Assembly (NCBI GenBank): GCA_937868765.1
Contig: CALMNL010000004.1
Span: 694,749-758,748, forward strand
Source: an uncultured Desulfatitalea sp.
Lineage (GTDB): Bacteria; Desulfobacterota; Desulfobacteria; Desulfobacterales; Desulfosarcinaceae
Length of the DNA: 64,000 nt
Reading direction: 5' to 3'
Made by a program: the position numbers and the translations under genes. Below are positions 30,341-45,863 of the stretch, in pieces. Within the stretch, counting starts at the first letter, position 1, and every line of letters begins with the position of its first letter. The notes beneath the pieces are model-generated. The model was not told the DNA's origin. It worked only from the letters and a program-made list of their open reading frames with translations, and did no database searches.

Positions 30341-32013
30341 GGTTTGGGCTCCTGACGTGCGGGCGGTGGGCGCACCAGGGTGCCGGCGCCCTGCCAGGTG
30401 TCGGCGAAGCGCGCCTCCCGGTAGTAATAGAGGATATCGGTGTAGGCGTCCCGCAGTTTACCATTCACCCGGTAGTAAGGCGCGTCCAGGCCGGCCTCCA
30501 CGGCGCGCTGATCCCGGATGTCCACGAGCAGCACGTCGCCCGCCAGCTTTGTGCCGGCCTTGTATGGGGCGAATTGCAGCCCGGGGTAGTCGCTCAAGGT
30601 CCAGGGCAGGGGCCAGGTCTGCTGGATGGCCACCACGATGCGCATGTTGTTGGCCTCGGGGTGACGGGCGCAGGCCCGCTCGATGTTCGCTTTAAGGCTG
30701 TTGAGGGACATGTCCGAGTGGGTGTAGACATACGGCTGGCTGGGATCGGCGGGATGGCGGAATTCCAGCCGGGCGGCCAGCCCCGCACTGGCCACGATGA
30801 GCAGTGCCGCCGTAAGATAGCCCAGCCCCTGGCCCCAGAGCGGCCACTGCCGACGGACGGTTTCCACGGCATAACCGAAGACAAAGCACAGCGGCCAGAT
30901 GAGGTTGAGAATTAGCCAGGGGGTCTTGTAGGGAATCAGGGAGTAGGCCAGCACCAGACCCACGGCCAGGGCGCACCAGAAGCGGCCCAGGCGCGATGTG
31001 CGCCACCCCAGCACGGCCGATGCGGCCAGGGCTGCCAGCGCCGGCCATTCGTACATCCGCATGAGTTTGAGCCAGTAAAAAAAGGGCTTTTCGTGACCGC
31101 TGCCGCCCATGCCGGTCTTGAGCCAAGGCGCCAGGGCCGCCACCATGTCCACCACGCCCCGGGGATTCATCAAAAAGCCGCTGTAGATCAAGAGGGTCGC
31201 CAGCAGGCCGGCGCCGATGGCCTTGAAAATAAAGTCCCGGGCGTCCGGCGGCGCAAACGCCGGTTTCACAACGTGTTTGCCCTTTTTACCCACCGGCATC
31301 GGCAGCTCCTCCCGGACCTCGCCTTCGGGCAGAAAGCGGCCCAACACCGACACCAGGAAAAGGGCGATGAACCAGGTGCCGAAGAAGATAAAAAAGGTCT
31401 CCTTGATCAAGACGGTGCCGAAGAATCCCGCTGTCATGCAGACCACGCCCGTGCGCCAGGAGACACGCCGGGCGTAGCTGAAGTAGCCGTAGCTGAACAG
31501 CAGCTGAAAGAAGATGAAGACCGTCTCGTGGATGGCATAGCGCCCGTAAAAGAGCGCGGCCGGGCTGAAAGCCAGGGCCAGGGCGGCCCACAGGGCGATG
31601 CGGCCGAAAAAACGCCGGTGGGCCAGGACCAGCAGGGTGTTGAGCGCGGCGAAAACCACCGTCACCAGCCGCAGGGAGATGATCCCCTTGCCGAAAAGGG
31701 TCTCGCTGAGCTGCAGCATGTAGAAGAACAGAGGGCCGTGGTAGTTGGAGGGATCATAGCGGAAAAACCCCTGGCGCCACATCTGAATGATATACCAGCC
31801 GTTGACCCCCTCGTCGTGGTGGGGCGGCCGCAAACCCAGGGCGTACAGCAACAGGAACAGCCAGGCCACCGCGGGCAACGCCAGAAACCAGTGCCAGGAG
31901 TCACTCTTTTTCATGTACCAAGCCATTTGAATCTCGGGACCGGGACCGGTGGTGCGCTGGATGGACGCGCGGCCCCGCATGCGGGTCAGGAACAAATGCA
32001 CGGTCCATAACAT
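30337..32013 (-). CDS. Agl23/TIGR03663-like membrane glycosyltransferase-associated protein
   Basis: 558 residues with about eleven membrane segments. The N-terminal HHDEGVNGWYI, the aromatic YDPSNYHGPLFFYML and the SPAALFYGRYAIHETVFIFF stretches match the TIGR03663 family of flippase-associated, ArnT-like proteins. HDEG supplies the acidic pair expected of GT-C enzymes. It is the first gene of the three-gene operon with the GT-C-like and GtrA-GT2 proteins. The start is uncertain; the family N-terminus fits ATG at 31926 better than ATG at 32013. Confidence 0.78.
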   Translation of the reverse strand: MLWTVHLFLTRMRGRASIQRTTGPGPEIQMAWYMKKSDSWHWFLALPAVAWLFLLLYALGLRPPHHDEGVNGWYIIQMWRQGFFRYDPSNYHGPLFFYMLQLSETLFGKGIISLRLVTVVFAALNTLLVLAHRRFFGRIALWAALALAFSPAALFYGRYAIHETVFIFFQLLFSYGYFSYARRVSWRTGVVCMTAGFFGTVLIKETFFIFFGTWFIALFLVSVLGRFLPEGEVREELPMPVGKKGKHVVKPAFAPPDARDFIFKAIGAGLLATLLIYSGFLMNPRGVVDMVAALAPWLKTGMGGSGHEKPFFYWLKLMRMYEWPALAALAASAVLGWRTSRLGRFWCALAVGLVLAYSLIPYKTPWLILNLIWPLCFVFGYAVETVRRQWPLWGQGLGYLTAALLIVASAGLAARLEFRHPADPSQPYVYTHSDMSLNSLKANIERACARHPEANNMRIVVAIQQTWPLPWTLSDYPGLQFAPYKAGTKLAGDVLLVDIRDQRAVEAGLDAPYYRVNGKLRDAYTDILYYYREARFADTWQGAGTLVRPPPARQEPKP

Positions 32014-32341
32014 GAAGCATGGCTGTAATTCAATGTCTGATTGTCAACCCCCGCCGCCCATCGTATCGTCGGCCAAGCGGCTGCGTGCAGGGATCGAACA
32101 ACCTCATGCCCAAAAATGGTTGGCAACCGGCAATGGAAGCCGAATCCCCGCAGATTTGTTCGCCATTGTCGAACTCAAACAATGAAATCCGCTTATTTTC
32201 GGATAACTTTGAATTTCATGGTGTCATGCCATGACATGGGCTATACAATTGCTTCCTCGGTGTTCGGACCCTACGCCGAACGGGTAAAAAGGCGGACGGC
32301 CCCCCTGGGTCAACAATGAAACAATAGGTTCTGCGGTTGGC
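32014..32341. other. Divergent intergenic region with a palindrome
   Basis: Between the Agl23-like and MFS genes. TGTCAT-GCC-ATGACA (32222-32236), 106 bases before the MFS start, is the only clear palindrome and could be an operator. No RNA gene or small coding frame is supported here. Confidence 0.45.
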
Positions 32342-33607
32342 ATGAAAAAGAAGCTCTTCTACGGTTGGTGGATCGTCGCGGCGACCAATATCATCTGCAT
32401 GTTCGGATACGGCACCTGGCTTTACAGTTTCGGGGTGTTCTTCAAACCCATGTCCGAGGAGTTCGGCTGGACCCGGGCCATGACCGCGGGGGCCTACGCC
32501 CTGCGCAGCGTGGAAGGCGGGGTGGCCTCGCCCATCGTGGGCTGGGCGGTGGACAAGTATGGCGCGCGGTTGCTGGTCGTCATCGGCGCGATCGTCTCCG
32601 GCGCAGCCTTTACCCTCATGCCCCTGATCAAATCACTGCTGGGCTTCTACCTGATCTATGGCATCATGCTCTCGGCCGGTATGAGCGCCATGCTCTATCT
32701 GCCGGCCTGGACCGTGATCGCCAAGTGGTTCCGCCGCCGCCTCTCGCTGGCCATGGCGATCTTGTCGGTGGGCGCCGGGCTCGGCGGCATCATCTGCGCC
32801 CCCCTGGCGGCCCACATGATCAACCGCTTCGGCTGGCGCAGCGCCTTCGTGGTCATGGGCATCTTCATCTGGGTGGTGGTGATCCCCCTCGCCTTCGTGA
32901 TCAAGGAGCGGCCCGAGGCGTTGGGACTGGCACCCGATGGCGACCCGCCCGCCCCCCCCCTGCCCCGGGCTGGGGCGGAACCGAACGCCGATTCCATCGC
33001 CGGATCCGCGCACGGCGGGGACGGCGACTACACCCTGAAAGAGGCGTTGCGCTCATCGGCCTTCTGGTTTCTGGCTCTGGCCTTTTTCTTCCAGGGCATG
33101 GCCCATTCCACCGTGACGGTGCATACGGTGCCGGCCCTGACCGACGCCGGCATCCCCGCCGAACGGGCGGCCATCAGCATCGGGTTGCTGACCCTGGTGA
33201 GCATCATCGGCCGGCTGGCCTTCGGCTACCTGGGCGATTTCTTCAGCAAACGCTACCTCTTCATGATCTCCTACTCGCTCATGGGGTCCGGCCTGCTGGT
33301 GCTGATGACCGCCAAAACCATGGGGATGGTGTGGCTCTTTCTCTTTCTGTTCGGCGTCGGTTTCGGCGGCAACATCCCGCTGATGCCGGCCATCCGGGCG
33401 GAATACTTCGGGCGCAAGGCGCTGGGCAAAATCCAGGGGTTCATGGACCCGGTGATGATGGCCGCGGGGGCCACGGGGCCGATCTGGACCGGCTATATTT
33501 TCGATTCCACCGGTTCCTACCGTTTGGCCTTCATGACCATCGGGCTGCTCACCTTCCTGGCCGCCGTGGCCATGTTCCTTTCCCGTCCCAGGCGCCGGGT
33601 GTCATGA
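32342..33607 (+). CDS. MFS transporter, monocarboxylate/oxalate-formate-like
   Basis: 421 residues and twelve predicted helices, with a short cytoplasmic loop of about 45 residues in the middle (EALGLAPDGD and a Pro-rich stretch). The opening YGWWIVAATNIICMFGYG, the loop GWAVDKYGARLL and the RRRLSLAMAI segment place it with the OFA/MCT branch, which carries monocarboxylates or dicarboxylates. The substrate is unknown. A palindrome (32222-32236) precedes it. Confidence 0.83.
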   Translation: MKKKLFYGWWIVAATNIICMFGYGTWLYSFGVFFKPMSEEFGWTRAMTAGAYALRSVEGGVASPIVGWAVDKYGARLLVVIGAIVSGAAFTLMPLIKSLLGFYLIYGIMLSAGMSAMLYLPAWTVIAKWFRRRLSLAMAILSVGAGLGGIICAPLAAHMINRFGWRSAFVVMGIFIWVVVIPLAFVIKERPEALGLAPDGDPPAPPLPRAGAEPNADSIAGSAHGGDGDYTLKEALRSSAFWFLALAFFFQGMAHSTVTVHTVPALTDAGIPAERAAISIGLLTLVSIIGRLAFGYLGDFFSKRYLFMISYSLMGSGLLVLMTAKTMGMVWLFLFLFGVGFGGNIPLMPAIRAEYFGRKALGKIQGFMDPVMMAAGATGPIWTGYIFDSTGSYRLAFMTIGLLTFLAAVAMFLSRPRRRVS

Positions 33608-33690
33608 CCCGCCGTTTTTTCGATCTTGCACGGTGGCCCGTCGCAGATTATTATTCTGGTATGTCGAACACATCACCAAAGGAGGTCCTT

Positions 33691-33909
33691 ATGAACGAGC
33701 AAGATCGTTCCATCAAAGACCGCCGCAGCGGCAAGGACAGACGCAAGTTTCCGACAATTAAACAATTTTTGATGAAAGCGCCGGAAAAGAGAGTTTCGGA
33801 TCAGCGCCGGGTGACACCGGAGCGGCGCACCGGGTGGGTGCGGTTGACCAAATGGTCGAGCATCGACCTGAGCAAGTACAAGATTTCCAAGTACCTGAAG
33901 CCCTACTGA
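33691..33909 (+). CDS. Small basic hypothetical protein
   Basis: 72 residues from ATG 33691, preceded by AAAGGAGG. It is strongly basic, with three RR repeats: DRRSGKDRRKF, DQRRVTPERRTG and a final KYKISKYLK. The spacing of Arg pairs (RRSGKDRR) is common in small proteins of this bacterial group and suggests RNA or DNA contact, but no family is named. A terminator follows, so it may end the MFS transcript or stand alone. Confidence 0.65.
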   Translation: MNEQDRSIKDRRSGKDRRKFPTIKQFLMKAPEKRVSDQRRVTPERRTGWVRLTKWSSIDLSKYKISKYLKPY

Positions 33910-33913
33910 GTCT

Positions 33914-33950
33914 GGGGGGACCCACGGTCCCCTCAGCCGATTATCCCTTT
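33914..33950 (+). terminator. Terminator of the small basic protein gene
   Basis: GGGGACC (33916-33922), loop CAC, GGTCCCC (33926-33932), followed at a distance by CCCTTTTT. It touches the stop codon of the convergent racemase gene. Confidence 0.6.
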
Positions 33951-35087
33951 TTCCGCCAATCCGCGGAGGTGATCCGCACTATATCCAAACTCCCTCAGCA
34001 CCGCCTGGGTATCCTGACCAAAGCCGGGCCGCGGCGTGCGCACCGACCCCGGGGTAGCGCTCAATTTCACCGCCACGCCCAGCTCCGTTTCGCTGCCGCC
34101 CCCGGGCCGGGGGACGGTCACCACCATTTCCCGCTGTTGGAAGTGGTCACCCGCCAGCGCCTCCTCCATGGTGTGGATGCCGCTGACGCACAGGTCCAGG
34201 CCGCCCAGTTCCGCTTCCCATTGAGCCAGCGATTTTTCCCGGAAAACAGCGGCAAAAGCCTCGATGATCTCTTGGCTCCGCACCGCGTCGAACTGCAGCT
34301 CGGCATATTGGGATAATCCCACCTGGCGGCAGAGGCCTTTCCAGAACCGGCTCTCCAGGGCGCCCACCGCCAGGAAGCGGCCGTCGGCGGTCTCATAGGT
34401 ATTGTAGCAGGCATAGCCGTGGGCCAGCATATTCCGGCCTCTGGGAGGATTGGTGCCCGTCTGCTCGTGGTGAAATTTGGCCACCGGCAGCAGGGCCAGC
34501 ATGCCGTCGGTCATGGCGATGTCGATGTACTGTCCCTGCCCCGTGCGCTGGCGGGCATAGAGGGCCAGCAGGATGCCGATGGCCCCGTTCATTCCGCCGC
34601 CGGCGATATCGGCGATCTGGATGCCGGGGATGACCGGCTTCCGGCCGGCTTCGCCGATCAAGTCCAGCACGCCGCTGCCGCCCAGGTAGTTGACATCGTG
34701 CCCGGCCCGGTTGCGCCAGGGCCCGCTCTGGCCGAAGCCGCTGATCGAGCAGTAGATGATGTCCGGCTTGACTTTGCGCACCGAGGCGTAGTCCACGCCC
34801 AGCCGGTCGACCACCCCCGGGCGGAAGCCCTCGATGACGACGTCGGCCTGCGCGGCCATCCGAAGAAAAATTTCCCTGCCCTCCGCACTCTTGAGATCCA
34901 GGCAGATGTGGGATTTGTTGCGCTGCACCGAGGGCAGGAAGAGGCCGTCCTTCAAATACTGCTTCCGGTCCTCGATGGCGATCACTCGGGCGCCGTGATC
35001 GGCCAGGATCATGGAGCAGTAGGGGCCGGGCAGCAGGCGGGAGAGATCCAGTACGGTGATACCGCTAAGCGCGCCTTGGTTCAACAC
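33933..35087 (-). CDS. Alpha-methylacyl-CoA racemase-type class III CoA enzyme
   Basis: 384 residues from GTG 35087, which follows GAGGAG. The racemase pair is present: AGHDVNYLGGSGVL (the AMACR His motif GHDINY) and IQIADIAGGGMNGAIG (catalytic Asp). The fold is CaiB/BaiF, whose members are either CoA transferases or racemases; the GHDxNY motif favours the racemase. It would invert the 2-methyl stereocentre of branched acyl-CoAs before dehydrogenation. It is the last gene of the TetR-led acyl-CoA operon and overlaps no neighbour. Confidence 0.85.
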   Translation of the reverse strand: MLNQGALSGITVLDLSRLLPGPYCSMILADHGARVIAIEDRKQYLKDGLFLPSVQRNKSHICLDLKSAEGREIFLRMAAQADVVIEGFRPGVVDRLGVDYASVRKVKPDIIYCSISGFGQSGPWRNRAGHDVNYLGGSGVLDLIGEAGRKPVIPGIQIADIAGGGMNGAIGILLALYARQRTGQGQYIDIAMTDGMLALLPVAKFHHEQTGTNPPRGRNMLAHGYACYNTYETADGRFLAVGALESRFWKGLCRQVGLSQYAELQFDAVRSQEIIEAFAAVFREKSLAQWEAELGGLDLCVSGIHTMEEALAGDHFQQREMVVTVPRPGGGSETELGVAVKLSATPGSVRTPRPGFGQDTQAVLREFGYSADHLRGLAEKGIIG

Positions 35088-35097
35088 GGTGTTCTCC

Positions 35098-36240
35098 TCA
35101 CAGCCCCATGAACTTCGCCGCAATTCCCTTCATGATCTCGTTGGTCCCGGCGAAGATCGACATCACCCGCGTGTCGCGGAAGGCCCGGGCCATGGGGCAG
35201 GCCTCCAGGGTGCCATAGGGCCCGATGAGATCCAGGGCCCGTTCGGCCAGCCGGTGGGTGACGTCCGTCGTCCAGAACTTGGCCATGGAGACCTCCACCA
35301 CGATATTCTTCTTCTCCGTGTGATCCGCGATCAACTTCTCCACGAAGGTGCGTCCAATTCTGGCCTCGGCCGCCATCTCCACCAGGGCGAACTGCACCGC
35401 CTGAGAACGCACCAGCGGTTTGCCCGAAACCACAGTCCGCTTGCAGAAATCGATGGTGTACTCCACGATGCGTTCGGCGGCCAGCGCCGCACCCATCGCG
35501 CAGGCCAGGCGCTCCTGCTGGAGTTTGTCCATGAGCAGGAAGAAGCCGCCGCCGTGGGCGCCCAGGCGGTTGGCTACCGGGATGCGGCAATCGGAGAAGA
35601 ACAGTTCGGCCGTGTCCTGGCTGTGCCAACCCATCTTCTCCAGCCGCCGCCCCTTCTTGAAGCCGGGCGTGCCGGCCTCCACCAGGTAGAGCGATACGGC
35701 CTGATGCTTGTCGGCCACCGCCGGGTCCTTGGCCGCCAGCACCACCAGGTCGCAGCTCACGCCGTTGGAGATGAAGGTCTTGGAACCGTTGATCACGACC
35801 GTGTCGCCGTTCTCCACGGCCGTGGTCTGCATACCGGCCAGATCGCTGCCGGCGCTCGGTTCGGTCATGGCCACGGCGGTGACGATGTCGCCCGACACGC
35901 AGCCGGGCAGATATTTGCGCTTCAACGCCTCCGAAGCGAAGGATTCGATGTACGGCACCACCACATCGCTGTGCAGGCTCGCTGCCAGACCGGTCTGCCA
36001 GGTGCGCGACATCTCTTCGGCCACGATGAAGCTGTAGAGAAAATCGCCTCCCAGCCCACCGTACTGTTTTTCCACTGACGGACAGAGAAAGCCGGCCTGC
36101 CCCATTTTGCGCCACATCTCCCGGGGCACCTGGTGCGCTTCCTCCCAGCGATCGGCCTGGGGCTTGACCTCGCGGTCGCAGAAATCGCGCAACCGCCTGC
36201 GGAAATCCAAGTGGGCATCGGTATAGTGTAAAATTTCCAT
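35098..36240 (-). CDS. Acyl-CoA dehydrogenase, IVD/LCAD-type active site
   Basis: 380 residues from ATG 36240, which follows GGAAGG. FAD and substrate motifs are AMTEPSAGSDLAGM and GSKTFISNG. At the usual catalytic Glu position (YEGT in MCAD) it has FAGTNEI, while a Glu is found in QQERLACAMG on helix G, the arrangement of isovaleryl- and long-chain acyl-CoA dehydrogenases. That placement is linked with branched or long substrates. Electrons would pass to an ETF. It overlaps no gene and is followed after ten bases by the racemase. Confidence 0.88.
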   Translation of the reverse strand: MEILHYTDAHLDFRRRLRDFCDREVKPQADRWEEAHQVPREMWRKMGQAGFLCPSVEKQYGGLGGDFLYSFIVAEEMSRTWQTGLAASLHSDVVVPYIESFASEALKRKYLPGCVSGDIVTAVAMTEPSAGSDLAGMQTTAVENGDTVVINGSKTFISNGVSCDLVVLAAKDPAVADKHQAVSLYLVEAGTPGFKKGRRLEKMGWHSQDTAELFFSDCRIPVANRLGAHGGGFFLLMDKLQQERLACAMGAALAAERIVEYTIDFCKRTVVSGKPLVRSQAVQFALVEMAAEARIGRTFVEKLIADHTEKKNIVVEVSMAKFWTTDVTHRLAERALDLIGPYGTLEACPMARAFRDTRVMSIFAGTNEIMKGIAAKFMGL

Positions 36241-36271
36241 GGAAGCACCTTCCGCCTTCTGTCTTTCGCCG

Positions 36272-37477
36272 CTACTTGTAGCTCCCGATGATCGCAATGC
36301 TGCAGATGTTCTGGAAGGGAAATCCTCCCAGATTGTGGGTCAACCCGTAACGCGGATGCGCCAACTGCCGGTCGGCGGCCCGTCCCTGCAGCTGCAGGTA
36401 GATCTCGTAGAGCATGCGCAGGCCCGAGGCGCCGATGGGGTGACCGAAGCATTTGAGGCCGCCGTCCACCTGGCAGGGCAGATCGCCGCCGCGGTCGAAG
36501 CGGCCGTCGAGCACATCGTGCCAGGCCCGGCCCCGCTCGGAGACGTGCAGGTCTTCCATGGTGACCAACTCGGTGATGGAGAAGCAGTCGTGGACTTCCA
36601 TCAGCCCCAGTTCTTTCCTGGGGTCTGAAATCCCCGCCTCCTTGTAGGCGGCTGCGCTGCAGCGGTCGGTGGTCATGAAGTGATCGCCGTCCCAGCTGTT
36701 GAAGCCGGCCTCCTCGCCGCTGCTCAGGGCGATCTGCAAGGCCTTGACCGTCACCAGATCCTTCTTGCCCAGTTGCTGGGCGATCTCGGGGGTGGTAACG
36801 ATGGCGCAGGCCGCGCCGTCGCTGACGCCGCAGCAGTCGAAAAGCCCCAGGGGATGGGCGATGATGGGCGCGGCGAGCACCTGCTCCAGGGAAACCGGCT
36901 TGCGCAGGTGGGCCTTGGGGTTGATGGCGCCGTTGGCGTGACTCTTCACTGACACGTGGCCCATGGCCCGCTTGAGTTCGGCCCCGCTCACCCGGTACTT
37001 GGCCTGGTAAGCGCTGGCCAGTTGGGCGAACGAGCCGGGGGCGGTGAGATTGGGCCACCACTGCCAGTTGAGGGTGCCGGCCCCCGAGCCGGGGTTGGGC
37101 AGACCGCCGTAGCCGGTGTCCTTGAGCTTTTCCACACCCATGGCCAGGCAGATGTCGTAAGCCCCGGAGGCGACACCGTAGCAGGCGCCGCGAAAGGCCT
37201 CGGTGCCGGTGGCGCAGTAGTTCTCCACCCGGGTCACCGGGATCATGGGCAGGCGCAGGGTGGTTGCCAGGGGCATGCCGGTTTTGCCCACGTTGACCTC
37301 TTCCATGCAGGTGCCCAGCCAGGCCGCCCCGATGCGGCTCTTTTCAATGCCGGCGTCGGCCAGGCACTCTTCGAAAGCTTCCACCATCAATTCTTCGGCA
37401 CCCGCGTCCCAGCGTTCGCCGAAGCGCGTGCAGCCCATGCCGAGGATGGCGACTTTATCTTTGATTCCGGTTGCCAT
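36272..37477 (-). CDS. SCPx-type 3-oxoacyl-CoA thiolase
   Basis: 401 residues. The nucleophile is in VENYCATGTEAF, the second site VHDCFSITELV and the His motif KCFGHPIGASGLRM are present, and it ends HNLGGFPFQNICSIAII. These are features of sterol-carrier-protein-X thiolases, which cleave branched 3-oxoacyl-CoAs. Partners of this class are often DUF35 proteins, and one is fused into the next gene upstream. ATG at 37477 follows GGGAGGTG. Confidence 0.88.
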   Translation of the reverse strand: MATGIKDKVAILGMGCTRFGERWDAGAEELMVEAFEECLADAGIEKSRIGAAWLGTCMEEVNVGKTGMPLATTLRLPMIPVTRVENYCATGTEAFRGACYGVASGAYDICLAMGVEKLKDTGYGGLPNPGSGAGTLNWQWWPNLTAPGSFAQLASAYQAKYRVSGAELKRAMGHVSVKSHANGAINPKAHLRKPVSLEQVLAAPIIAHPLGLFDCCGVSDGAACAIVTTPEIAQQLGKKDLVTVKALQIALSSGEEAGFNSWDGDHFMTTDRCSAAAYKEAGISDPRKELGLMEVHDCFSITELVTMEDLHVSERGRAWHDVLDGRFDRGGDLPCQVDGGLKCFGHPIGASGLRMLYEIYLQLQGRAADRQLAHPRYGLTHNLGGFPFQNICSIAIIGSYK

Positions 37478-37492
37478 GGTTCACCTCCCGCT

Positions 37493-40246
37493 TTACTTCA
37501 AAACGAATAACTTCTCGATGAGTTGCGACTTCATGATGTCCCCTTCGATCTTCAACTTGCCCGACGTGTACGCCTGCATGGCCGGCAGCTGACCGCCGAT
37601 CATGGCCCCGAAGTCGGCCGCGGCCATTTTCAAGGTGCAGGTGGGCTTGGCGTGGACGCCGTCGGCCAGTTCGCAGCGCTGGTCGCGGATGGTCAAGGAC
37701 CAGTCGCCGCCCCCCGGACCGGAGATGGCGAACTGGAAGACCACGTCCATCCCCTTGGCCGCGTCGGCCTTGAAGCTGCCGGCCAGGCGCTTGAACACGG
37801 CCGGCAGGTCGACACTCCCCGCCGCAGCCACCGCGGGCGCCGGCGCCGCAACCTGGGCCGGCGCCGGAGCCGCGGCCCTGGGGGTCATCAGGTCCAGGGT
37901 GGCGGCCCCCAGATCGTCCAGCTCCTTGGCGGCGCTGAGATCGTTGATCCGGGCCCAGTTCTCGGCGATATCTTCTACGCTGGGGATCGCCCCGTCCGCT
38001 TCGCCCAGTTTCGCCGAGGCGCCGGTGAGTACCGCGGCCCGGCTGAAGTGGCCCATGCCGGCGTTGTAGATGGCACCGGAGGTCTCGCAGGCATTGCAGC
38101 ACAGGTAGAGCGCCATGGGCACCACGTATTCCGGCTTGGCCCGTTCGAAGAGTTCGGGGGGCATGACATCTTCGGTGAGCCGCGAGGCGGCCAGGGGCGC
38201 CAGGGTGTTGACCTTGATGTTGTACTTCTTGCCCTCGAGCTTGAGGGCGTTCATCAGCCCCACCAGGGCCATCTTGGCGCTGGCGTAGTTGGCCTGGCCG
38301 AAATTGCCATAGAGGCCGGCGGCCGAGGTGGTCATCAGGATGCGGCCGTAGCCCTTTTCTTTCATGGCGGCGAAGGCCGGTCGGCTGACGTGGTAGGCGC
38401 CGTGCAGATGCACGGCCAGTACGGCCTGCCACTGCTCGGGCTCGGTCTTGAGGAAACTTTTGTCGCGCAGGATGCCGGCGTTGTTGATCAGGATGTCCAG
38501 GCGGCCGAAGTGCTTTATAGCGCAATCGACGATGGCCCGGCCGCCCTCGGCAGTGGCCACGTTGTCGTAGTTGGCCACCGCCTGGCCGCCGGCTGCCGTG
38601 ATCTCGGCCACCACCTGATCGGCGGCCGATGACGATCCTTGGCCGGCGCCGTCCCGGGCGCCGCCCAGGTCGTTGACCACCACGGCCGCTCCGCGGCGGG
38701 CCAGTTCCAGGGCGTAGGCCCGGCCCAGGCCGCCGCCGGCGCCGGTCACCACCGCCGCCTGTCCGTCGAAGCGGATGCGGGACATTACCTGGGCTGCATC
38801 GGGGGTGGGGGTCGCCTTCCAGAAGTAATTGACGAAACCGCGCTCTTTGTCTTCGCCGCGCTTGCGGAACACCATGTGCACGGGCAGGCCCACCTGTAGT
38901 TCGTCGAAGTCGCAGTCGGTGAAGTCGGCCATCAGCCGGCCGCCGTCGTCGAACTGCACCATGCCGTATTTATGGGGCGGATCCACTGAGACGGCCAGCA
39001 GATCACCGGTGAAGGTCTTGATCCGCGCCGGCCGGTCGGCGAACTCGTAATCTTCCTGGGTGTGATGGGCGCCGCACGCGGGGTTGACGCAGATGTCGGC
39101 CTTCGGGAACTGGGGCGTGCCGCACTTCGTGCAGCGCCCCCCGACCAGGCCCAGCAGCATCTGGCGCTTGCGCCACAGGGCGGTCATGGCGGTCTGGGTG
39201 GGGGCTTCGGCACGGATGCCCATCTCCGGCGCGATCAGGTCGCGGAACTTGAGCCACTGGGTATAGTTGCTGGTGCTCTTCTTGTAGGCCAGAGCGCCGC
39301 TGACGCCGCCCCGGGGGACCAGGCGCCGGATGGCCTCGGTGACCTCGAAGCACAGGGCGTTGCACCCCTGGCCGAAGCCGGCCACGATGATCCGCTCGCC
39401 GGGCTGGGCCGTTTCCAGGACATGGGCCAGCATCAGCAACGGATGGGCCGTGCCGGTCTCGCCGCACACCTCGAAGAGCGTGTCGGCCACCTTTTCGGGT
39501 GCGGCCCCCAGCTGGCGGGCGATCTTCTTGTGCTCGGCTGTGAAGATGCACGGGAAGACCAGGTGGTCGATCTCTTTCATGGTGAGGCCCAGCTTGGCCA
39601 GCAGGCCGCTGACTGCCTCGGGGATGATCTTGCTGTAACCTTCGTCCCGCGCCCAGCGCTCTTCCCACACGTAGTCGTAGGCCCTGCCGGCATGCCGGTA
39701 GTGATCCACAAAGTCATAGGAGACCGTGTAGGCGCCCTTAAACTCTGCGATCACGTCCTGATCGCCCACCATCATGGCCGCGGCGCCATCGCCGTACCAC
39801 ATCTCGTAGAAATAGGCCGTGCGCGTCTCGCGACGGTCGGCGGCGGCCACCAGGATGTTGCGACGCGCACCGCCCTGCACCGTTTCCAGGGCCGTGAGCA
39901 GCGCCGTGCTGCCGGCCTTCTGGGAGGCCGTGAAATCGGAGGCCAGAATACTGCTGGGCAAATTGAGGGCCGTGGCCACGATCCCGGCATTCTGGCGGTC
40001 GGCGAACGGCAGGGTGGTGGAGCCCAGGAAGAGTCCTTCCACCGCCCGTTTGTCCTGCCCGATCAAACACTCCCGGGCGGCGGCCACGGCCATGGTGACG
40101 GCGTCTTCGTCCCAGTAGCACATGGAGCGCTCGCCCTGGGCGACCATCATGATGGCCGGCGCGAACCACCCCATGGCCTGGACGATGGCCATGCGCTCGA
40201 GTCTCAGTTTCGGGATATAGGCACCGTAAGAAGTTATTCCGATCAT
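37493..40246 (-). CDS. Four-part fusion: HMG-CoA-synthase-like, DUF35, short-chain dehydrogenase, SCP2
   Basis: 917 residues. (1) About 1-330, thiolase-fold HMG-CoA-synthase/KAS III-like, but the nucleophile position reads SQKAGSTAL (Gln109 where Cys is expected), the His position VFP and the Asn position GETG, so it may be inactive or repurposed. (2) About 345-480, DUF35 rubredoxin-like zinc ribbon with CTKC then CVNPAC and an OB fold. (3) About 490-760, short-chain dehydrogenase with TGAGGGLGRAYALE and the Tyr-Lys of YASAK. (4) About 810-917, SCP2 sterol-carrier domain after a Pro/Ala linker. It would oxidise 3-hydroxyacyl-CoA and carry a bulky acyl chain. Confidence 0.85.
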   Translation of the reverse strand: MIGITSYGAYIPKLRLERMAIVQAMGWFAPAIMMVAQGERSMCYWDEDAVTMAVAAARECLIGQDKRAVEGLFLGSTTLPFADRQNAGIVATALNLPSSILASDFTASQKAGSTALLTALETVQGGARRNILVAAADRRETRTAYFYEMWYGDGAAAMMVGDQDVIAEFKGAYTVSYDFVDHYRHAGRAYDYVWEERWARDEGYSKIIPEAVSGLLAKLGLTMKEIDHLVFPCIFTAEHKKIARQLGAAPEKVADTLFEVCGETGTAHPLLMLAHVLETAQPGERIIVAGFGQGCNALCFEVTEAIRRLVPRGGVSGALAYKKSTSNYTQWLKFRDLIAPEMGIRAEAPTQTAMTALWRKRQMLLGLVGGRCTKCGTPQFPKADICVNPACGAHHTQEDYEFADRPARIKTFTGDLLAVSVDPPHKYGMVQFDDGGRLMADFTDCDFDELQVGLPVHMVFRKRGEDKERGFVNYFWKATPTPDAAQVMSRIRFDGQAAVVTGAGGGLGRAYALELARRGAAVVVNDLGGARDGAGQGSSSAADQVVAEITAAGGQAVANYDNVATAEGGRAIVDCAIKHFGRLDILINNAGILRDKSFLKTEPEQWQAVLAVHLHGAYHVSRPAFAAMKEKGYGRILMTTSAAGLYGNFGQANYASAKMALVGLMNALKLEGKKYNIKVNTLAPLAASRLTEDVMPPELFERAKPEYVVPMALYLCCNACETSGAIYNAGMGHFSRAAVLTGASAKLGEADGAIPSVEDIAENWARINDLSAAKELDDLGAATLDLMTPRAAAPAPAQVAAPAPAVAAAGSVDLPAVFKRLAGSFKADAAKGMDVVFQFAISGPGGGDWSLTIRDQRCELADGVHAKPTCTLKMAAADFGAMIGGQLPAMQAYTSGKLKIEGDIMKSQLIEKLFVLK

Positions 40247-40270
40247 ATGGCTACCTCATTGGATTTGGTT

Positions 40271-42025
40271 TTATTTTATTTCCTGCCACACATCCATCAG
40301 CTGTTCCGTGAGCTGACCGTACTCCTTGCCCTTGTCCAGGGCGGCGATGGCGGCGATGCCATCCCGGACCTCTTCCAGGGTGGGGATGCGGCCGCCGGCG
40401 GCCGGCACTTTGCCGCTCCCGGTGACCATGGCCGCCCGGTTGTAGAAGCCCATGCCGGCGTTGTAGACATTTCCGCTCACCGGGCACTGCTCGGAACAGA
40501 GGAACAGCGCCATGGGCACGGCGTACTCGGGTTTCATCTTGGCGAAGAGATCGGGCGGCAAAATGTCTTCGGTGAGGCGCGACGCGGCCAGGGGCGCGAT
40601 GGTATTGACCTTGATGCCGTATTTCTCACCTTCCAGCTTGAGCACGTTCATCAGCCCTACCAGGCCCATCTTGGCCGCGGCGTAGTTCGTCTGGCCATAG
40701 TTGCCGTAAAGCCCGGCGGCCGAGGTCGTCATCAGGATACGGCCGTACTTGTTCTCCCGCATGGCGGCGAAGGCCGGACGGCTGACGTGGTAAGCCCCGT
40801 TGAGGTGCACGTCGAGCACGGCACGCCAGTTCTCAGGCTCCATATTGCCGAAGCTCTTGTCACGCAGGATGCCGGCATTGTTGATCAGGATGTCCAGGCG
40901 GCCGAAATGCGCAAGGGCGCAGTCGACGATGGCCTGGCCGCCCTCGGGGGTGGCCACCGAATCGTAGTTGGCCACGGCCTGGCCACCGGCCGCCTTGATC
41001 TCGGCCACCACCTGGTCCGCCGGGCCGGCCGCGCCCTTGCCCGAGCCGTCCCGGGCGCCGCCCAGGTCATTGACCACCACCCTGGCCCCGCGCCGGGCCA
41101 GTTCCAGGGCATAGGCCCTTCCCAGGCCGCCGCCGGCGCCGGTGACGATGGCCACCCGCTCGTCGAAACGAATGGTGCGTTGGGGTGGATCGCCATACTC
41201 GAAGACGCCGTTGTCGATCACCACGGCGCCGGTTTCGGCATTCAGCACCCGCCACAGGGCGCGGCCTTCTTCCATCTTCCAGATCAGGGTCTTGATGGGC
41301 ACGCCGGGATAGAGCGGCTTGCTGAAGCGGCAGGCCATGCGCCGGGCTTTTTCGGGGGCGCCGGGAATCAGGTGGTCGCACAAGGCGCGGCAGGCATAAC
41401 CATGGGTGCACAGGCCGTGCATGATGGGCTTCTCGAACCCGGCCATCCTGGCGAAATCCGGGTCCACGTGCAGGGTGAAGAAATCCCCGGAGAGACGGTA
41501 AAGCAGCGGCTGGTGGGCGCTGGGGTGCGCCGCCACCTCGATATCCGGTGCCCGGTCGGGGAACACCACGTCGTTTTTGGGCGCGTTGGGACCGCCGAAA
41601 CCGCCGTCCAATCGGCCGAAGACCGTGCAGATGCTGGTGAAGAGCCGGCGCCCCTGGGCGTCCACGGTGTCGCTTTCGCCCACGATCAGGGCCCCCTTGC
41701 CGGCGCCTTTGTCGTAGATGCCGGTGATGCGGCCTTCGGTGGTGATGCTTCCCTCGACCGGCATGGGCCGGTGGAAGATCAGTTCCTGCTCGCCATGGAG
41801 CACCCCGGCCAGGTTGACGTTGGACTTTACCCCGATCATGGCCAGGATGTTGAAGATCGAGGCGATGGAGAAGCTGGGGATGACTTTCAGGTTCTTTTCG
41901 TAACAGTACTGCAAATCCGCCTCGCCGGCGCCCACCCCCAGGGCGTATAGCACCACATCTTTCCAGGTGTAGGTTTTGGAGAGGGGGCCGAGCTTTTCGC
42001 CCACGGCATCGACATTGAGGGCCAT
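40271..42025 (-). CDS. MaoC-type 2-enoyl-CoA hydratase fused to short-chain dehydrogenase (MFE-2-like, order reversed)
   Basis: 584 residues. Residues 1-280 are a double hotdog hydratase-2 domain, with the N-half DVVLYALGVGAGEADLQYCYE and the active hydratase motif DPDFARMAGFEKPIMHGLC (Asp and His). Residues about 288-584 are a short-chain dehydrogenase with TGAGGGLGRAYALE and Tyr-Lys in YAAAK. Eukaryotic MFE-2 has dehydrogenase, hydratase, then SCP2; here the hydratase comes first. The dehydrogenase is about four fifths identical by eye to that in the next gene. It follows the TetR gene by 40 bases; AAAGGAGG precedes the ATG. Confidence 0.88.
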   Translation of the reverse strand: MALNVDAVGEKLGPLSKTYTWKDVVLYALGVGAGEADLQYCYEKNLKVIPSFSIASIFNILAMIGVKSNVNLAGVLHGEQELIFHRPMPVEGSITTEGRITGIYDKGAGKGALIVGESDTVDAQGRRLFTSICTVFGRLDGGFGGPNAPKNDVVFPDRAPDIEVAAHPSAHQPLLYRLSGDFFTLHVDPDFARMAGFEKPIMHGLCTHGYACRALCDHLIPGAPEKARRMACRFSKPLYPGVPIKTLIWKMEEGRALWRVLNAETGAVVIDNGVFEYGDPPQRTIRFDERVAIVTGAGGGLGRAYALELARRGARVVVNDLGGARDGSGKGAAGPADQVVAEIKAAGGQAVANYDSVATPEGGQAIVDCALAHFGRLDILINNAGILRDKSFGNMEPENWRAVLDVHLNGAYHVSRPAFAAMRENKYGRILMTTSAAGLYGNYGQTNYAAAKMGLVGLMNVLKLEGEKYGIKVNTIAPLAASRLTEDILPPDLFAKMKPEYAVPMALFLCSEQCPVSGNVYNAGMGFYNRAAMVTGSGKVPAAGGRIPTLEEVRDGIAAIAALDKGKEYGQLTEQLMDVWQEIK

Positions 42026-42065
42026 AGTATCCTCCTTTTTTACCGTGCGTGCACGTGCTGGAACA

Positions 42066-42701
42066 CTACGCCTGCGGCGCCTTGCGGGTGAAGGCCGGCA
42101 GCAGGATGAATTTCAAGGTTTCCTTGACCACCGCCAGATAGGCCTGGCGATCCACATTGAGAATGGGCCGGAAGAGATCTTCGCCGGCCGCGAAATTGAC
42201 CACCGAATTCCACACCGCCAGCACCCGGGCGTTGGCCTGGGGCGGCACGTGGGCCTTGTCCGGGGCCAGCCCCATGGCCACGGCGATGTTGGCCAGGTGG
42301 CGGGTGAAGTGGGCATCCAGTTCCGTGGTGATGCGATTCTTGGCAAAGTGGCTGAAGAGCATCAGGTGGGCCGAGTCGCTGTTATTGAACAGGTGATCGC
42401 ACATCACGTCGATGGCCACCTCCAGGCGCACCTCCAGGGGCTTGCCGTGGACCAGGCCTTCGATCTCCACCAGTTTGGTGCGGATCTCGTCGCTCAGATC
42501 GGTGAGGACCGCTTCGTACAGATCCTGTTTCTCGCCCCAGTGGTAATGCAGGGTGGAAATATCGATGCCCACTTCCTGGGCGATCATACGCGTGGTGACG
42601 CCGTGGTAGCCGTAATCACCGAAGAGCTTGCGGGCCGCCGTAAGGATGCGGGCCTTCATGGAATCGGGCGCCTGGCGGGCCTTTTCGAGAGCGGTGGGCA
42701 T
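42066..42701 (-). CDS. TetR-family regulator of the acyl-CoA operon
   Basis: 211 residues from ATG 42701. The N-terminal helix-turn-helix has ILTAARKLFGDYGYHGVTTRMIAQEVGIDISTLHYHWGEKQDLYEAV, a clear TetR/AcrR pattern, and the C-terminal half is a helical ligand domain. It is the first gene of the unit, so it probably represses its own operon and senses an acyl-CoA. A palindrome and a TTGACA box lie upstream. An in-frame ATG at 42743 is a longer alternative start. Confidence 0.87.
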   Translation of the reverse strand: MPTALEKARQAPDSMKARILTAARKLFGDYGYHGVTTRMIAQEVGIDISTLHYHWGEKQDLYEAVLTDLSDEIRTKLVEIEGLVHGKPLEVRLEVAIDVMCDHLFNNSDSAHLMLFSHFAKNRITTELDAHFTRHLANIAVAMGLAPDKAHVPPQANARVLAVWNSVVNFAAGEDLFRPILNVDRQAYLAVVKETLKFILLPAFTRKAPQA

Positions 42702-42748
42702 GAGCGCTGGACCTTTCCGATGGGTTCGGGTGTTTCCCAGCATTTGAT

Positions 42749-42796
42749 TCCATCATTTGATGGACATCATCTACCTATATATTAAACGTCTGTCAA
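42749..42796 (-). promoter_or_regulatory. Promoter with candidate TetR operator
   Basis: Minus strand: TTGACA at 42796-42791, then 17 bases to a weak -10 (TAGATG, 42773-42768), then the palindrome TCCATCA-TT-TGATGGA at 42764-42749, which would overlap the transcription start. Confidence 0.6.
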
Positions 42797-43010
42797 GAAA
42801 TAAATATGGTTCATCCCAAATTCAGTGCCGTCATGTCACCCGCATCCGGTCGGGCCGGCTGGGCGGGCATGACCCGAAGGTGCTGTGCGCGCATGGGCTG
42901 CAACCCAATGCTATTCTGCGAGAATTACGGCACGGCCAACAGCGGTTCTCGGTAAACCGTCACAGTGGGTTCAGGTCATGGTTCGGGGCACCATTGGCCA
43001 TATCTTTTTA

Positions 43011-43100
43011 GTGCCGCTGCGGTGCAGCGGAGGATAAGCGGCCTGGACTGTCTGAGCGCAGCGAGTTTCCAGGCCGCCCGGAGCGCACCCTTAGCGGCAC
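43011..43100. repeat. 90-base nested inverted-repeat element
   Basis: Outer arms GTGCCGCT (43011-43018) and AGCGGCAC (43093-43100); inner arms GCGGCCTGGA (43038-43047) and TCCAGGCCGC (43068-43077), both perfect; a small GCTGC-GGT-GCAGC hairpin sits at 43016-43028. It lies in the 592-base gap between the TetR and phosphorylase genes. The rest of that gap shows the TetR promoter region and no coding frame I can support. Confidence 0.7.
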
Positions 43101-43293
43101 TTGAAAAGAGTGGCCGGTGACACGGACCATGACCTGAACGCACGGTGCGCGCATTGGCCTCGAATGAATGCAGCTCAGCCAGAATCCATGCACGGCCTAT
43201 TGACCATTTGCCATTCCATCGGCGAGGATGCTAAAGGGAAACGTCATCCCGGCGCCGATTCGACCGCCATCCGACGAGCAAGAGGAGACTCCC

Positions 43294-45825
43294 ATGGAGC
43301 AGCCAAGCCAAAAGGCGGCATCCCCATCGCCTTCCCCGGACATGTCAAGCGCAGCGTTCCAGTGGGACGCGGGCCTGTACGAAACCGACACCGTGGCCGG
43401 GCTCAAACGCGACATCATCCGGCATATCGTTTCCAGCCTCGGCCTGGACTACGCCCGACGCAGCGAATATAATTACTTTCACGGGCTCGCACTGGCCGTG
43501 CGCGACCGCATGATCGACCAGTGGATCAAGACCCAGCGCGCCTATTACGACCGGGCGAGCAAGCGGGTCTACTACCTCTCCATGGAATACCTGCCGGGCA
43601 AATCCCTCCTGAACAACCTGCATTGCCTGGGAATTTACGACGCGGCCCAACAGGCCCTGGCCGAATTCGGCCTCCGGCTCGAAGATGTGGCCGAAGTGGA
43701 GTGGGATGCGGGGTTGGGCAACGGCGGCCTCGGACGCCTGGCCTCCTGCTACCTGGACTCCATGGCCACCGGAGGCGTGCCGGGCTATGGCTACGGCCTG
43801 CGGTACGACTACGGCATCTTCCATCAGGTGATCGAGAACGGGGCCCAGGTAGAGCGCCCCGACAACTGGACCCAGCGGGGCAACCCCTGGGAATACGGTC
43901 GCGGCCCCTTTTTGTACGAGGTCCACTTCTTCGGCCGCTCCCACGCCTGGACCGATGACCAGGGCCGGCTGCGCTTCAGCTGGGTGGACACGGAAAAGGT
44001 GCTGGCCCTGGCCTGCGACATGCTCGTGCCGGGTTTCCGCAACGGCCACGCCATCAACATGCGGCTGTGGACCGCTCGGTCGGACACCGAATTCAATCTG
44101 GACTATTTCAACACCGGCGACTACATCGGCGCGGTGGAGGCCAAGATCCGCGACGAAGTGATCTCCAAGGTGCTCTATCCCAACGACAAGCGCCTGCGCG
44201 GCCGGCTGCTGCGTCTGGCGCAACAGTATTTCCTGGTGGCCGCTTCCCTGAAGGATGTGATGCGGCGGTACAAGAAGAAGCACACCACCTTCGACCAGCT
44301 GCCGGAGAAGGTGGCCATCCAGCTCAACGACACCCATCCCACCATCGCCATTCCGGAGCTGATGCGGATCCTGGTGGACGAAGAACTCCTCGACTGGGAA
44401 ACGGCCTGGCACCTGTGCGCCCGCATCTTTGCATACACCAACCACACCGTCCTGCCCGAAGCCCTGGAAACCTGGCCCTGCGCGCTCATGGAACGGATCC
44501 TGCCCCGGCATATGCAGATCATCTACGAGATCAACCATCGCTTCCTGGCGTGGCTGGACGCCCAAAGCGCCGGGCACCCCGACCCGGAGGGCCGCAAGCA
44601 GCGCCTCTCCATCATCCAGGAGTATCCGGAAAAGGCCGTGCGCATGGCGCACCTGGCCATCGTGGGCAGTTTTTCGGTCAACGGCGTGGCGGCCATGCAC
44701 ACCGACATCCTCCGCACGGTGGTCTTCCCGGAATTTCATGCGCTTTTTCCCGGGCGCTTCCGGAACATCACCAACGGCATCACCCCGCGGCGCTGGCTGA
44801 ACCAGTGCAATCCGGGCCTGGCCGCCCTGATCTCGGAGAAGCTTGCCGGCGACTGGATCTGCCACCTTGCGCGATTGCGCGAGCTGGCGACCCACGCCGC
44901 GGACGCCGATTTCCGGGAGCGCTGGCGGATGGTCAAGCAGGCCAACAAGCAGCGCCTGGCCGAGTACGTCCGGCGCAAGCTCGGCATCGAATGCCATCTT
45001 GCGGCCATGTTCGACGTTCATGTCAAGCGCATGCACGAATACAAGCGCCAGCTGCTCAACGTGCTGCACGTGATCACTCTCTACAATCGGATCAAGACCG
45101 ACCCGGCCGGCGACGGCACGCCCCGGGTGGTCTTTTTCGCCGGCAAGGCGGCGCCGGCCTATACCCTGGCCAAGCTGATCATCCGGCTGATCAACGGCGT
45201 GGCCGAAGTCGTGAACCACGACCCGGAGGCCCGGGGCCGGCTGCAGGTGATCTTCCTGCCCAACTACTGCGTCTCCCAGGCCGAGCGCATCATCCCCGCC
45301 ACGGAACTCTCGGAGCAGATCTCCACCGCGGGCTACGAGGCGTCGGGGACCGGCAACATGAAGTTCGCCCTCAACGGCGCGCTGACCATCGGCACCCTGG
45401 ACGGCGCCAACGTGGAGATGCTGGAAGAGATCGGGGCGGAGAACATCTTCATCTTCGGCCGCACCGCCGCGCAGATCGCCGCCCTGCGCCAGGAGGGCTA
45501 CAATCCCCGGCACTACTGCGAAAGCGATCCGGAATTGAAAAAGGCGCTGGAGATGATCGCCCGCAATGTTTTCTCGCCCGGCGCGCCCGGCCTATTCGCG
45601 CCGATCATCACGGCGCTGTTCGACGAAGGCGACAAATACTGCGTATTAGCCGACTACAGGGCCTATGTGGATTGCCAGGCGCGGGTCGCGCAGCTTTACC
45701 GGGACCCGGATGAATGGACCCGGCGCTCGATCCTGAACACGGCCCATATGGGCAAATTCTCCAGCGACCGCGCGGTGACGGAGTATGCCCAACGGATCTG
45801 GGGGGTGCGGCCCCTCACTTTTTGA
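43294..45825 (+). CDS. glgP: Glycogen/starch/alpha-glucan phosphorylase
   Basis: 843 residues, the full family length. The PLP lysine is Lys690 in SGTGNMKFALNGA, and GNGGLGRLASCYLDS, QLNDTHPTIAIPEL and FNGFHVKRMHEYKRQ-like signatures (here VHVKRMHEYKRQL) are intact. It releases glucose 1-phosphate from alpha-1,4-glucan. ATG 43294 is chosen because GAGGAGA precedes it. Storage-glycogen use fits the energy economy of an anaerobe. It is followed 38 bases later by the M48 peptidase gene. Confidence 0.95.
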   Translation: MEQPSQKAASPSPSPDMSSAAFQWDAGLYETDTVAGLKRDIIRHIVSSLGLDYARRSEYNYFHGLALAVRDRMIDQWIKTQRAYYDRASKRVYYLSMEYLPGKSLLNNLHCLGIYDAAQQALAEFGLRLEDVAEVEWDAGLGNGGLGRLASCYLDSMATGGVPGYGYGLRYDYGIFHQVIENGAQVERPDNWTQRGNPWEYGRGPFLYEVHFFGRSHAWTDDQGRLRFSWVDTEKVLALACDMLVPGFRNGHAINMRLWTARSDTEFNLDYFNTGDYIGAVEAKIRDEVISKVLYPNDKRLRGRLLRLAQQYFLVAASLKDVMRRYKKKHTTFDQLPEKVAIQLNDTHPTIAIPELMRILVDEELLDWETAWHLCARIFAYTNHTVLPEALETWPCALMERILPRHMQIIYEINHRFLAWLDAQSAGHPDPEGRKQRLSIIQEYPEKAVRMAHLAIVGSFSVNGVAAMHTDILRTVVFPEFHALFPGRFRNITNGITPRRWLNQCNPGLAALISEKLAGDWICHLARLRELATHAADADFRERWRMVKQANKQRLAEYVRRKLGIECHLAAMFDVHVKRMHEYKRQLLNVLHVITLYNRIKTDPAGDGTPRVVFFAGKAAPAYTLAKLIIRLINGVAEVVNHDPEARGRLQVIFLPNYCVSQAERIIPATELSEQISTAGYEASGTGNMKFALNGALTIGTLDGANVEMLEEIGAENIFIFGRTAAQIAALRQEGYNPRHYCESDPELKKALEMIARNVFSPGAPGLFAPIITALFDEGDKYCVLADYRAYVDCQARVAQLYRDPDEWTRRSILNTAHMGKFSSDRAVTEYAQRIWGVRPLTF

Positions 45826-45863
45826 AACCACGGGCCTGAAAACGCAGGTGATTGGAGGGACCA

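Follow-up and report, generated by a model that had tools for sequence, protein, structure and literature searches.

A six-gene operon was analysed in a 64,000-nucleotide stretch of DNA (the window) from an uncultured Desulfatitalea sp. (assembly GCA_937868765.1, contig CALMNL010000004.1, positions 694,749 to 758,748 of the forward strand; genome 5.36 Mb, rated 100% complete). It lies on the minus strand (33933–42701) and carries, in this order, the genes of a TetR-family regulator; a MaoC hydratase joined to a short-chain dehydrogenase/reductase (MaoC-SDR); a fusion protein of HMGCS-like (3-hydroxy-3-methylglutaryl-CoA (HMG-CoA) synthase-like), DUF35, SDR and SCP2 domains; a thiolase; an acyl-CoA dehydrogenase of the long-chain (LCAD) type; and a racemase of the alpha-methylacyl-CoA (AMACR) type. 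Judged from the sequence, the operon on balance probably supplies the enzymes for a full round of (3R)-type beta-oxidation, with 2-methyl-branched acyl-CoAs as the most likely substrates and the HMGCS-like domain as a pseudo-enzyme scaffold. Its most interesting part, not stressed in the preliminary description of the stretch, is this pseudo-enzyme domain, which is paired with a thiolase in nearly every locus read and is here fused to the SDR that would form the substrate of the thiolase.

We infer substrate, direction, stereochemistry, cofactor, complex formation and channelling as follows. The racemase would interconvert (2R)- and (2S)-methylacyl-CoA; the dehydrogenase would give the 2-enoyl-CoA; the MaoC hydratase would add water to form the (3R)-hydroxyacyl-CoA, which the two SDRs, both of the MFE-2 type, would oxidise with NAD+; the thiolase would release propionyl-CoA from the resulting 3-oxo-2-methylacyl-CoA and leave a shortened acyl-CoA. 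The HMGCS-like pseudo-enzyme and DUF35 would serve as the thiolase scaffold, as PhlA and PhlB for PhlC, and the fusion of both to SDR and SCP2 would tie the two last steps together. This scheme builds on observations given below: the gene set and its conservation, catalytic residues that are retained, an HMGCS triad that is lost, and a thiolase gene that regularly accompanies the HMGCS-like domain. Methyl-branched chains are common in sediment lipids; to our knowledge, their breakdown by sulfate reducers is poorly assigned to genes, and the operon is a concrete, conserved candidate for it.

Gene order and distribution

Relatives of the fusion protein were collected by a scan of GTDB contigs (160 found; the best 80 kept and read); by identity in the fusion protein, the closest loci from records with titles are those of an unclassified Desulfobacterales genome (87%) and of Desulfatitalea (75–82%). 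Of 66 loci with enough sequence downstream, 63 have a thiolase gene directly after the fusion gene; the exceptions are L088 (fusion frame split; a thiolase does follow the second half), L087 (fusion frame ending in the SDR) and L042 (none of the other operon genes found). The MaoC-SDR gene directly precedes the fusion gene in 55 of the 60 loci with enough upstream sequence; misses: three loci with an SDR but without MaoC, L042 with neither, and L015, where MaoC-SDR precedes a split fusion frame. Because both neighbours are so constant, the arrangement is non-random. Among the 37 loci with 7 kb on both sides (well-flanked loci; a racemase near the operon was counted when full length and >50% identical), the dehydrogenase was found in 22, the full-length racemase in 21, both in 11, at least one in 32, and TetR in 28. 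A search for the same gene order in Desulfobacterales, proposed in the preliminary description as a check, was run, and the block is widespread there; named isolates that carry it include Desulfatitalea alkaliphila and Desulfosarcina alkanivorans.

Among 241 sampled genomes of the class, 91 gave an HMGCS-like-DUF35 match, 71 of them at ≥60% identity. All eight sampled genomes of the window's genus (the window's included) contain the operon or, in three, its remainder cut by a contig end: the three congeners seemingly without it (L138, L139, L140; G132, G134, G135) have contigs that end inside the operon, two retaining the end of the fusion gene and the third stopping in the thiolase gene. Presence/absence tables drawn from fragmented genomes will under-count the operon, since congener assemblies break inside it, twice within the fusion gene.

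Architecture of the 81 open reading frames (ORFs) with an HMGCS-like domain, some cut by contig ends: HMGCS-like-DUF35-SDR-SCP2, 61; without SCP2, 18; shorter, 2. MaoC-SDR ORFs: 51 of 59 with a C-terminal SCP2 domain, eight without, that of the window belonging to the latter. The usual pair is therefore MaoC-SDR-SCP2 with HMGCS-like-DUF35-SDR-SCP2, and it may be read as a permuted MFE-2 beside an SDR-SCP2 unit joined to a thiolase scaffold.

Unfused homologues of the HMGCS-like-DUF35 part (20 loci chosen from the matches in the 241-genome sample; about 490 aa, 30–52% identical in the HMGCS-like part) are directly followed by a thiolase gene in 20/20 loci, the thiolases being 40–70% identical. 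In L113–L115, a separate SDR gene stands just upstream of the unfused gene, with two dehydrogenases before the SDR. On plasmids, the HMGCS-like-DUF35/thiolase pair was present in 9/9 loci opened, of 51 records with a match (read from the record annotation; five of the nine also by BLAST), including plasmids of Sphingomonas and Variovorax, which are aerobes. In Variovorax paradoxus, the window's operon stands in unfused form, in the order SDR, MaoC, HMGCS-like-DUF35, thiolase, dehydrogenase, CoA-transferase; the last of these genes has no racemase motif, and a racemase-motif gene lies ~4 kb before the SDR gene. The Desulfobacterales form is thus the fused, racemase-associated version of a wider module that is not peculiar to anaerobes, and the suggestion of the preliminary description that the operon acts anaerobically does not describe an anaerobic invention. 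G196, G245 and G216 contain four to six HMGCS-like-DUF35 matches per genome; the unfused two-part thiolase may have multiplied in some genomes of the class.

Catalytic residues, the HMGCS-like domain and the operon layout

Racemase: best solved matches MCR (218 bits) and FAR (205 bits), both alpha-methylacyl-CoA racemases, all others ≤169.8 bits; H126, D156 and E241 (MCR numbering) kept in 30/30 aligned rows (29 loci and the window). Both results bear out the AMACR-type assignment made earlier, and by residues and nearest structures the product of the last gene is racemase-like. Class III CoA-transferase was rejected for this gene: the racemase residues are present in 30/30 rows, and the NCBIfam CoA-transferase matches lie far under their cut-offs.

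Acyl-CoA dehydrogenase: 404 bits with PDB 2pg0, 276 bits with mitochondrial LCAD; the catalytic Glu stands on helix G (Glu291 equivalent) in 38/38 homologues with Ala at the site used by the medium-chain enzyme (MCAD), as in LCAD. The equivalent of LCAD Pro132, which makes room for bulky sterols, is Leu in 38/38, so the mark of a sterol-accepting dehydrogenase is missing. Human LCAD is reported to accept branched chains (PMC11153573).

Thiolase: 692 bits with NCBIfam PRK06157 (cut-off 403); among structures, 193 bits with acetyl-CoA acetyltransferase 7yvy, 176 with archaeal acetoacetyl-CoA thiolase 6esq and 127.5 with SCP2-thiolase type-1. The catalytic Cys and the HD(C/A)F and GHPxGxxG motifs were found in 65/65 homologues and in the window, the latter with HDCF. 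The steroid-aldolase motif YD(H/C)(F/Y) was found in 0/65 homologues and is also missing in the window; retro-aldol cleavage by this thiolase was rejected on that ground. The term SCPx-type, used for it in the preliminary description, is loose: the thiolase carries no SCP2 domain and scores higher against other thiolases.

Hydratase and SDRs: the hydratase motif GD...LH is present in 57/59 MaoC-SDR homologues and in the window; the SDR motif S-x12-Y-x3-K in 59/59 for MaoC-SDR and in 77/79 for the SDR of the fusion protein, both window copies being intact. SDR and hydratase-2 domains with intact catalytic residues are thus combined in one chain, as in MFE-2. The window's SDR domains are 49–57% identical to the rat, fly and first yeast MFE-2 SDR domains and score higher against MFE-2 SDR domains than against any other listed structure; in the SDR tree, the four sequences of eukaryotic MFE-2 stand on long branches.

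The two SDR domains of the window are about 72% identical to each other. Pair identity averages 78% within a locus (56 loci) vs 75% between loci; in the SDR tree (bootstrap not fully settled, root for drawing only) the copies fall mostly into two sets, and in L011, L048, L050 and L070 both copies of a locus group as sisters, with starred support. For the window's copies, a recent gene conversion was rejected, their DNA being 78% identical with a longest identical run of 29 nt. The pattern is consistent with an old duplication and either homogenisation afterwards or a renewed duplication, as might be expected if the two SDRs must stay compatible, for instance as a heterodimer. MFE-2 SDRs are dimers.

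HMGCS-like domain: closest solved relatives PhlA (133 bits) and archaeal HMGCS (118 bits). In 96/96 family domains compared, other residues (in the window Thr, Gln and Pro) take the place of the Glu-Cys-His triad of archaeal HMGCS, with the Cys position unreadable in one row and the Glu position gapped in two; none of the three residues stands in place in any domain (0/96), although in two unfused homologues (L120, L122) one Cys sits one position before the place of the catalytic Cys. HMG-CoA synthesis by this domain was rejected on the loss of the triad. Mean column conservation of the fusion protein: HMGCS-like 79%, DUF35 81%, SDR 84%, SCP2 70%; the HMGCS-like domain is nearly as conserved as the working domains, despite the loss of its triad. 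The four-cysteine pattern of DUF35 was found in 79/79 homologues and in the window. In PMC6392133, PhlA is described as lacking the catalytic Cys and Glu, PhlC as performing the acyl transfer, PhlA with PhlB as very likely needed for a properly folded complex, and the layout of PhlACB as very similar to that of the archaeal thiolase/HMGCS complex. As in DUF35-dependent thiolase complexes of the archaeal or Phl kind, HMGCS-like, DUF35 and thiolase genes stand together here, and the thiolase Cys is kept.

Since the triad is lost and the domain conserved, the thiolase gene constantly adjoins it and PhlA resembles it, the HMGCS-like domain may be read, by analogy, as the scaffold of a channelling beta-oxidation complex. 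It is put forward only tentatively that a beta-oxidation particle is built on the pseudo-enzyme: HMGCS-like and DUF35 domains would hold the thiolase, the fused SDR would pair with its paralogue in MaoC-SDR, which would join hydratase, dehydrogenase and thiolase into a single complex, and branched acyl-CoAs would be passed on without release. If such a particle exists, the unfused form would represent a widespread, overlooked class of two-part thiolase. The pairing suggests a regular role for proteins annotated as 'OB-fold' or 'ACP synthase III C-terminal', that of non-catalytic partner to PRK06157-type thiolases, which would change the reading of many catabolic clusters. No paper naming this kind of fusion in its title was found in a literature search covering open-licence papers.

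The six minus-strand genes with short gaps that had been described earlier are all present; the intergenic gaps, calculated from ORF coordinates with gene starts at 42025, 40246, 37477, 36240 and 35087, are 40, 24, 15, 31 and 10 nt. The TetR ORF is readable from 42743, with the likely start at MPTALEK (42701), where homologues also begin. The features are collected in Table 1.

Table 1. Features of the operon (window coordinates).
Feature	Position	Strand	Match
TetR-family regulator, first gene of the operon	42066..42701	-	Pfam TetR_N 3.1e-15
MaoC (hydratase-2)-SDR fusion, 584 aa	40271..42025	-	Pfam MFE-2_hydrat-2_N, MaoC_dehydratas, adh_short
Hydratase part of MaoC-SDR	about 41186-42025	-	
SDR part of MaoC-SDR	about 40427-41173	-	
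Fusion protein HMGCS-like + DUF35 + SDR + SCP2, 917 aa	37493-40246	-	
HMGCS-like (thiolase-superfamily) domain, first part of fusion	39227..40246	-	ACP_syn_III_C/HMGCS-like
DUF35 domain (Zn ribbon + OB fold) of fusion	38792..39214	-	Pfam zf-ChsH2, OB_ChsH2_C
Second MFE-2-type SDR domain, in fusion	38027..38779	-	closest solved: MFE-2 SDR domains
SCP2 domain, C-terminal end of fusion	37496..37813	-	Pfam SCP2 3.6e-17
Thiolase, 401 aa	36272..37477	-	NCBIfam PRK06157, above cut-off
Acyl-CoA dehydrogenase, LCAD-type, 380 aa	35098..36240	-	PDB 2pg0 404 bits
AMACR-type (putative 2-methylacyl-CoA) racemase, 384 aa, GTG start	33933..35087	-	CoA_transf_3; PDB MCR 218 bits

The promoter scan gave no promoter-like site, the terminator scan gave terminators at chance level, and Rfam gave 0 matches within 30000–47000. 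A major facilitator superfamily (MFS) transporter gene of the lactate / oxalate-formate type (32342–33607, plus strand) is convergent with the operon end; a close relative also adjoins the operon in L009, L139 and L140, and the transporter may or may not serve the pathway. An Agl23-like protein (TIGR03663, 'flippase activity-associated', above cut-off) is encoded nearby at 30337–32013 (minus strand).

Substrate and rival explanations

Branched substrates were proposed in the preliminary description, and that part stands in outline: the set is full, the racemase has AMACR residues, the dehydrogenase is of the LCAD type, and SDR and hydratase are of the MFE-2 type; the alkanes, sterols, anaerobic setting and eukaryotic set that went with it are not supported. 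2-Methyl branches are supported by the racemase, its co-occurrence with and closeness to the operon, and the LCAD-type dehydrogenase. In the 241 genomes (kinship uncorrected; the three cut congeners counted among the 170), AMACR (E ≤ 1e-100) was found in 56/71 genomes with the fused gene (≥60% identity) vs 46/170 without it, and the dehydrogenase (E ≤ 1e-140) in 64/71 vs 26/170; where one contig carries both, AMACR lies ≤13 kb from the fused gene in 35 of 36 genomes (genomes with two copies entered once, with the copy on the operon's contig where available). Branched membrane or isoprenoid lipids of sediments are the likely natural substrates by our guess.

Several findings weigh against this assignment. 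AMACR is missing near the operon in 16 of the 37 well-flanked loci; searched genome-wide, seven of these 16 genomes have a copy at E ≤ 1e-100, seven have nothing closer than a weaker relative (to 1e-60) and two have none, and Desulfatibacillum alkenivorans has only a 35% relative. Since it is missing near these loci and a close copy is present in only seven of the 16 genomes, the racemase is not a required member of the set. Near 15 of the 37 loci the dehydrogenase is missing; two of the 66 fused loci (L042, L087) are without a thiolase nearby; some unfused plasmid homologues adjoin aromatic ring-hydroxylating dioxygenases, so that the thiolase module is not restricted to methyl branches; and an invariant Cys233 and a highly conserved old pocket of the HMGCS-like domain leaves room for a new activity.

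It is possible, if rather unlikely, that the operon serves (3R)-beta-oxidation of straight or unsaturated acyl-CoAs in general, with the racemase confined to a side branch. The 16 loci with AMACR out of reach, the unfused module beside diverse pathways on plasmids, and neighbours resembling FabK/nitronate monooxygenase (9 loci) and BaiCD/dienoyl reductase (7 loci), both under the NCBIfam cut-offs, would suit such a set; the strong enrichment of AMACR with the fused gene and the LCAD type of the dehydrogenase argue for 2-methyl branches instead. Other neighbours at other loci: acyl-CoA ligases, 12; second dehydrogenase, 12; iron alcohol dehydrogenase, 13; lone SCP2 protein, 10; aldehyde:ferredoxin oxidoreductase, 10. 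The neighbour genes point to lipid-like alcohols and acids and to no single compound.

After the operon, L020, L021, L023, L027, L034, L035, L036, L077 and L078 carry genes for an iron alcohol dehydrogenase, a stand-alone SCP2 protein and an aldehyde:ferredoxin oxidoreductase, as though the pathway took in alcohols. In Desulfosarcina alkanivorans (L022 genome; G002/G138), ~100 kb at ~4.14–4.24 Mb contain several AMACR-like genes, dehydrogenases in repeated copies and a second HMGCS-like-DUF35 gene, this one unfused, a possible island for branched-acid breakdown.

A new catalytic role of the HMGCS-like domain, for instance via Cys233 of the fusion protein (window 39548–39550, minus strand), is improbable as a replacement for the scaffold. 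This Cys stands beside the lost catalytic His and, like S76, T77, P80, D83, R84, P232 and the WEERW stretch around the old pocket, is invariant in 40/40 aligned fusion proteins; it is present at the same place in 15/20 unfused homologues. The five unfused homologues without it (L120, L129, L130, L131, L132) still have the thiolase neighbour, and PhlA, the nearest solved relative, is reported to lack the catalytic Cys and Glu (PMC6392133).

The preliminary description had named alkane–fumarate addition products or sterols as substrates; breakdown of such products or of sterol side chains by this operon appears distinctly unlikely. It would be in line with the presence of the operon in genomes filed under Desulfosarcina alkanivorans and Desulfatibacillum alkenivorans, with the BaiCD-like neighbours in seven loci, and with the proposal of AMACR for alkylsuccinate epimerisation (PMC6776118). 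The two pyruvate formate-lyase (PFL)-like proteins of the window's genome gave 282 and 274 bits vs hydroxyproline dehydratase or choline trimethylamine-lyase (TMA-lyase), 190 and 222 bits vs the benzylsuccinate synthase alpha subunit (8iof), and 166 and 143 bits vs MasD (the second protein compared by its matched 650 aa only). Neither has MasD or benzylsuccinate synthase as best match, and no AssA/MasD was found in this genome, rated 100% complete; the Desulfatitalea alkaliphila genome (completeness not stated) carries the operon and gave no PFL-like match. The alkane suggestion is unsupported here, and D. alkenivorans is without a close AMACR orthologue. Sterols are weakly supported: Leu for Pro132 and the missing aldolase motif speak against them; genes of steroid ring degradation were not searched for.

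That the set runs in reverse, building methyl-branched or long acyl chains for lipid synthesis, is very improbable: the reactions are reversible in principle and (3R) intermediates suit synthesis, but the ligase, alcohol dehydrogenase and aldehyde oxidoreductase neighbours of other copies, together with AMACR, look catabolic.

Comparison with known systems

The operon was at first likened to the eukaryotic peroxisomal branched-chain set. It shares racemase, MFE-2-type SDR, hydratase-2 and SCP2 with peroxisomal AMACR/MFE-2/SCPx, and an LCAD-type dehydrogenase with the mitochondrial enzyme; it differs in domain order, in having a dehydrogenase in place of an oxidase, in the thiolase branch, in the added HMGCS-like-DUF35 unit and in its two SDR copies. 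Eukaryotic MFE-2 has the order SDR-hydratase-SCP2, whereas the operon has MaoC-SDR (MaoC-SDR-SCP2 in 51/59 homologues); SCPx is an SCP2-thiolase fused to SCP2, whereas the operon thiolase stands without this domain. A peroxisomal equivalent of the HMGCS-like-DUF35 unit is not known to us. The likeness holds in part, and the operon does not represent the peroxisomal pathway transplanted to a bacterium.

PhlACB, the Pseudomonas Friedel-Crafts acylase (PDB 5m3k), likewise combines an HMGCS-like subunit without catalytic Cys and Glu, DUF35 and a thiolase-like subunit (PMC6392133); it consists of three separate proteins that acylate phloroglucinol, whereas in the operon HMGCS-like, DUF35, SDR and SCP2 form one chain in a setting of acyl-CoA breakdown. 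The archaeal acetoacetyl-CoA thiolase/HMGCS/DUF35 complex (PDB 6esq) has the three homologous parts and, like the operon, the thiolase Cys; archaeal HMGCS retains Glu82 and Cys114 and makes HMG-CoA (PMC6392133), whereas the triad of the operon's domain is gone.

In BbsAB, the benzoylsuccinyl-CoA thiolase, a DUF35-dependent thiolase is also found, and the bbs operon, as that of the window, holds a protein of the class III CoA-transferase fold, a dehydrogenase and SDRs together. BbsB gave 128 bits vs 193 for the nearest thiolase, and the class III-fold protein of the window's operon is, by its residues, a racemase; we know of no HMGCS-like part in BbsA. In the steroid aldolases Ltp2-ChsH2 and Sal-Shy, too, a thiolase fold is bound to a DUF35 domain (PMC12329534); these carry the motif YDHF/YDCY, whereas the operon thiolase has HD(C/A)F with the thiolase Cys.

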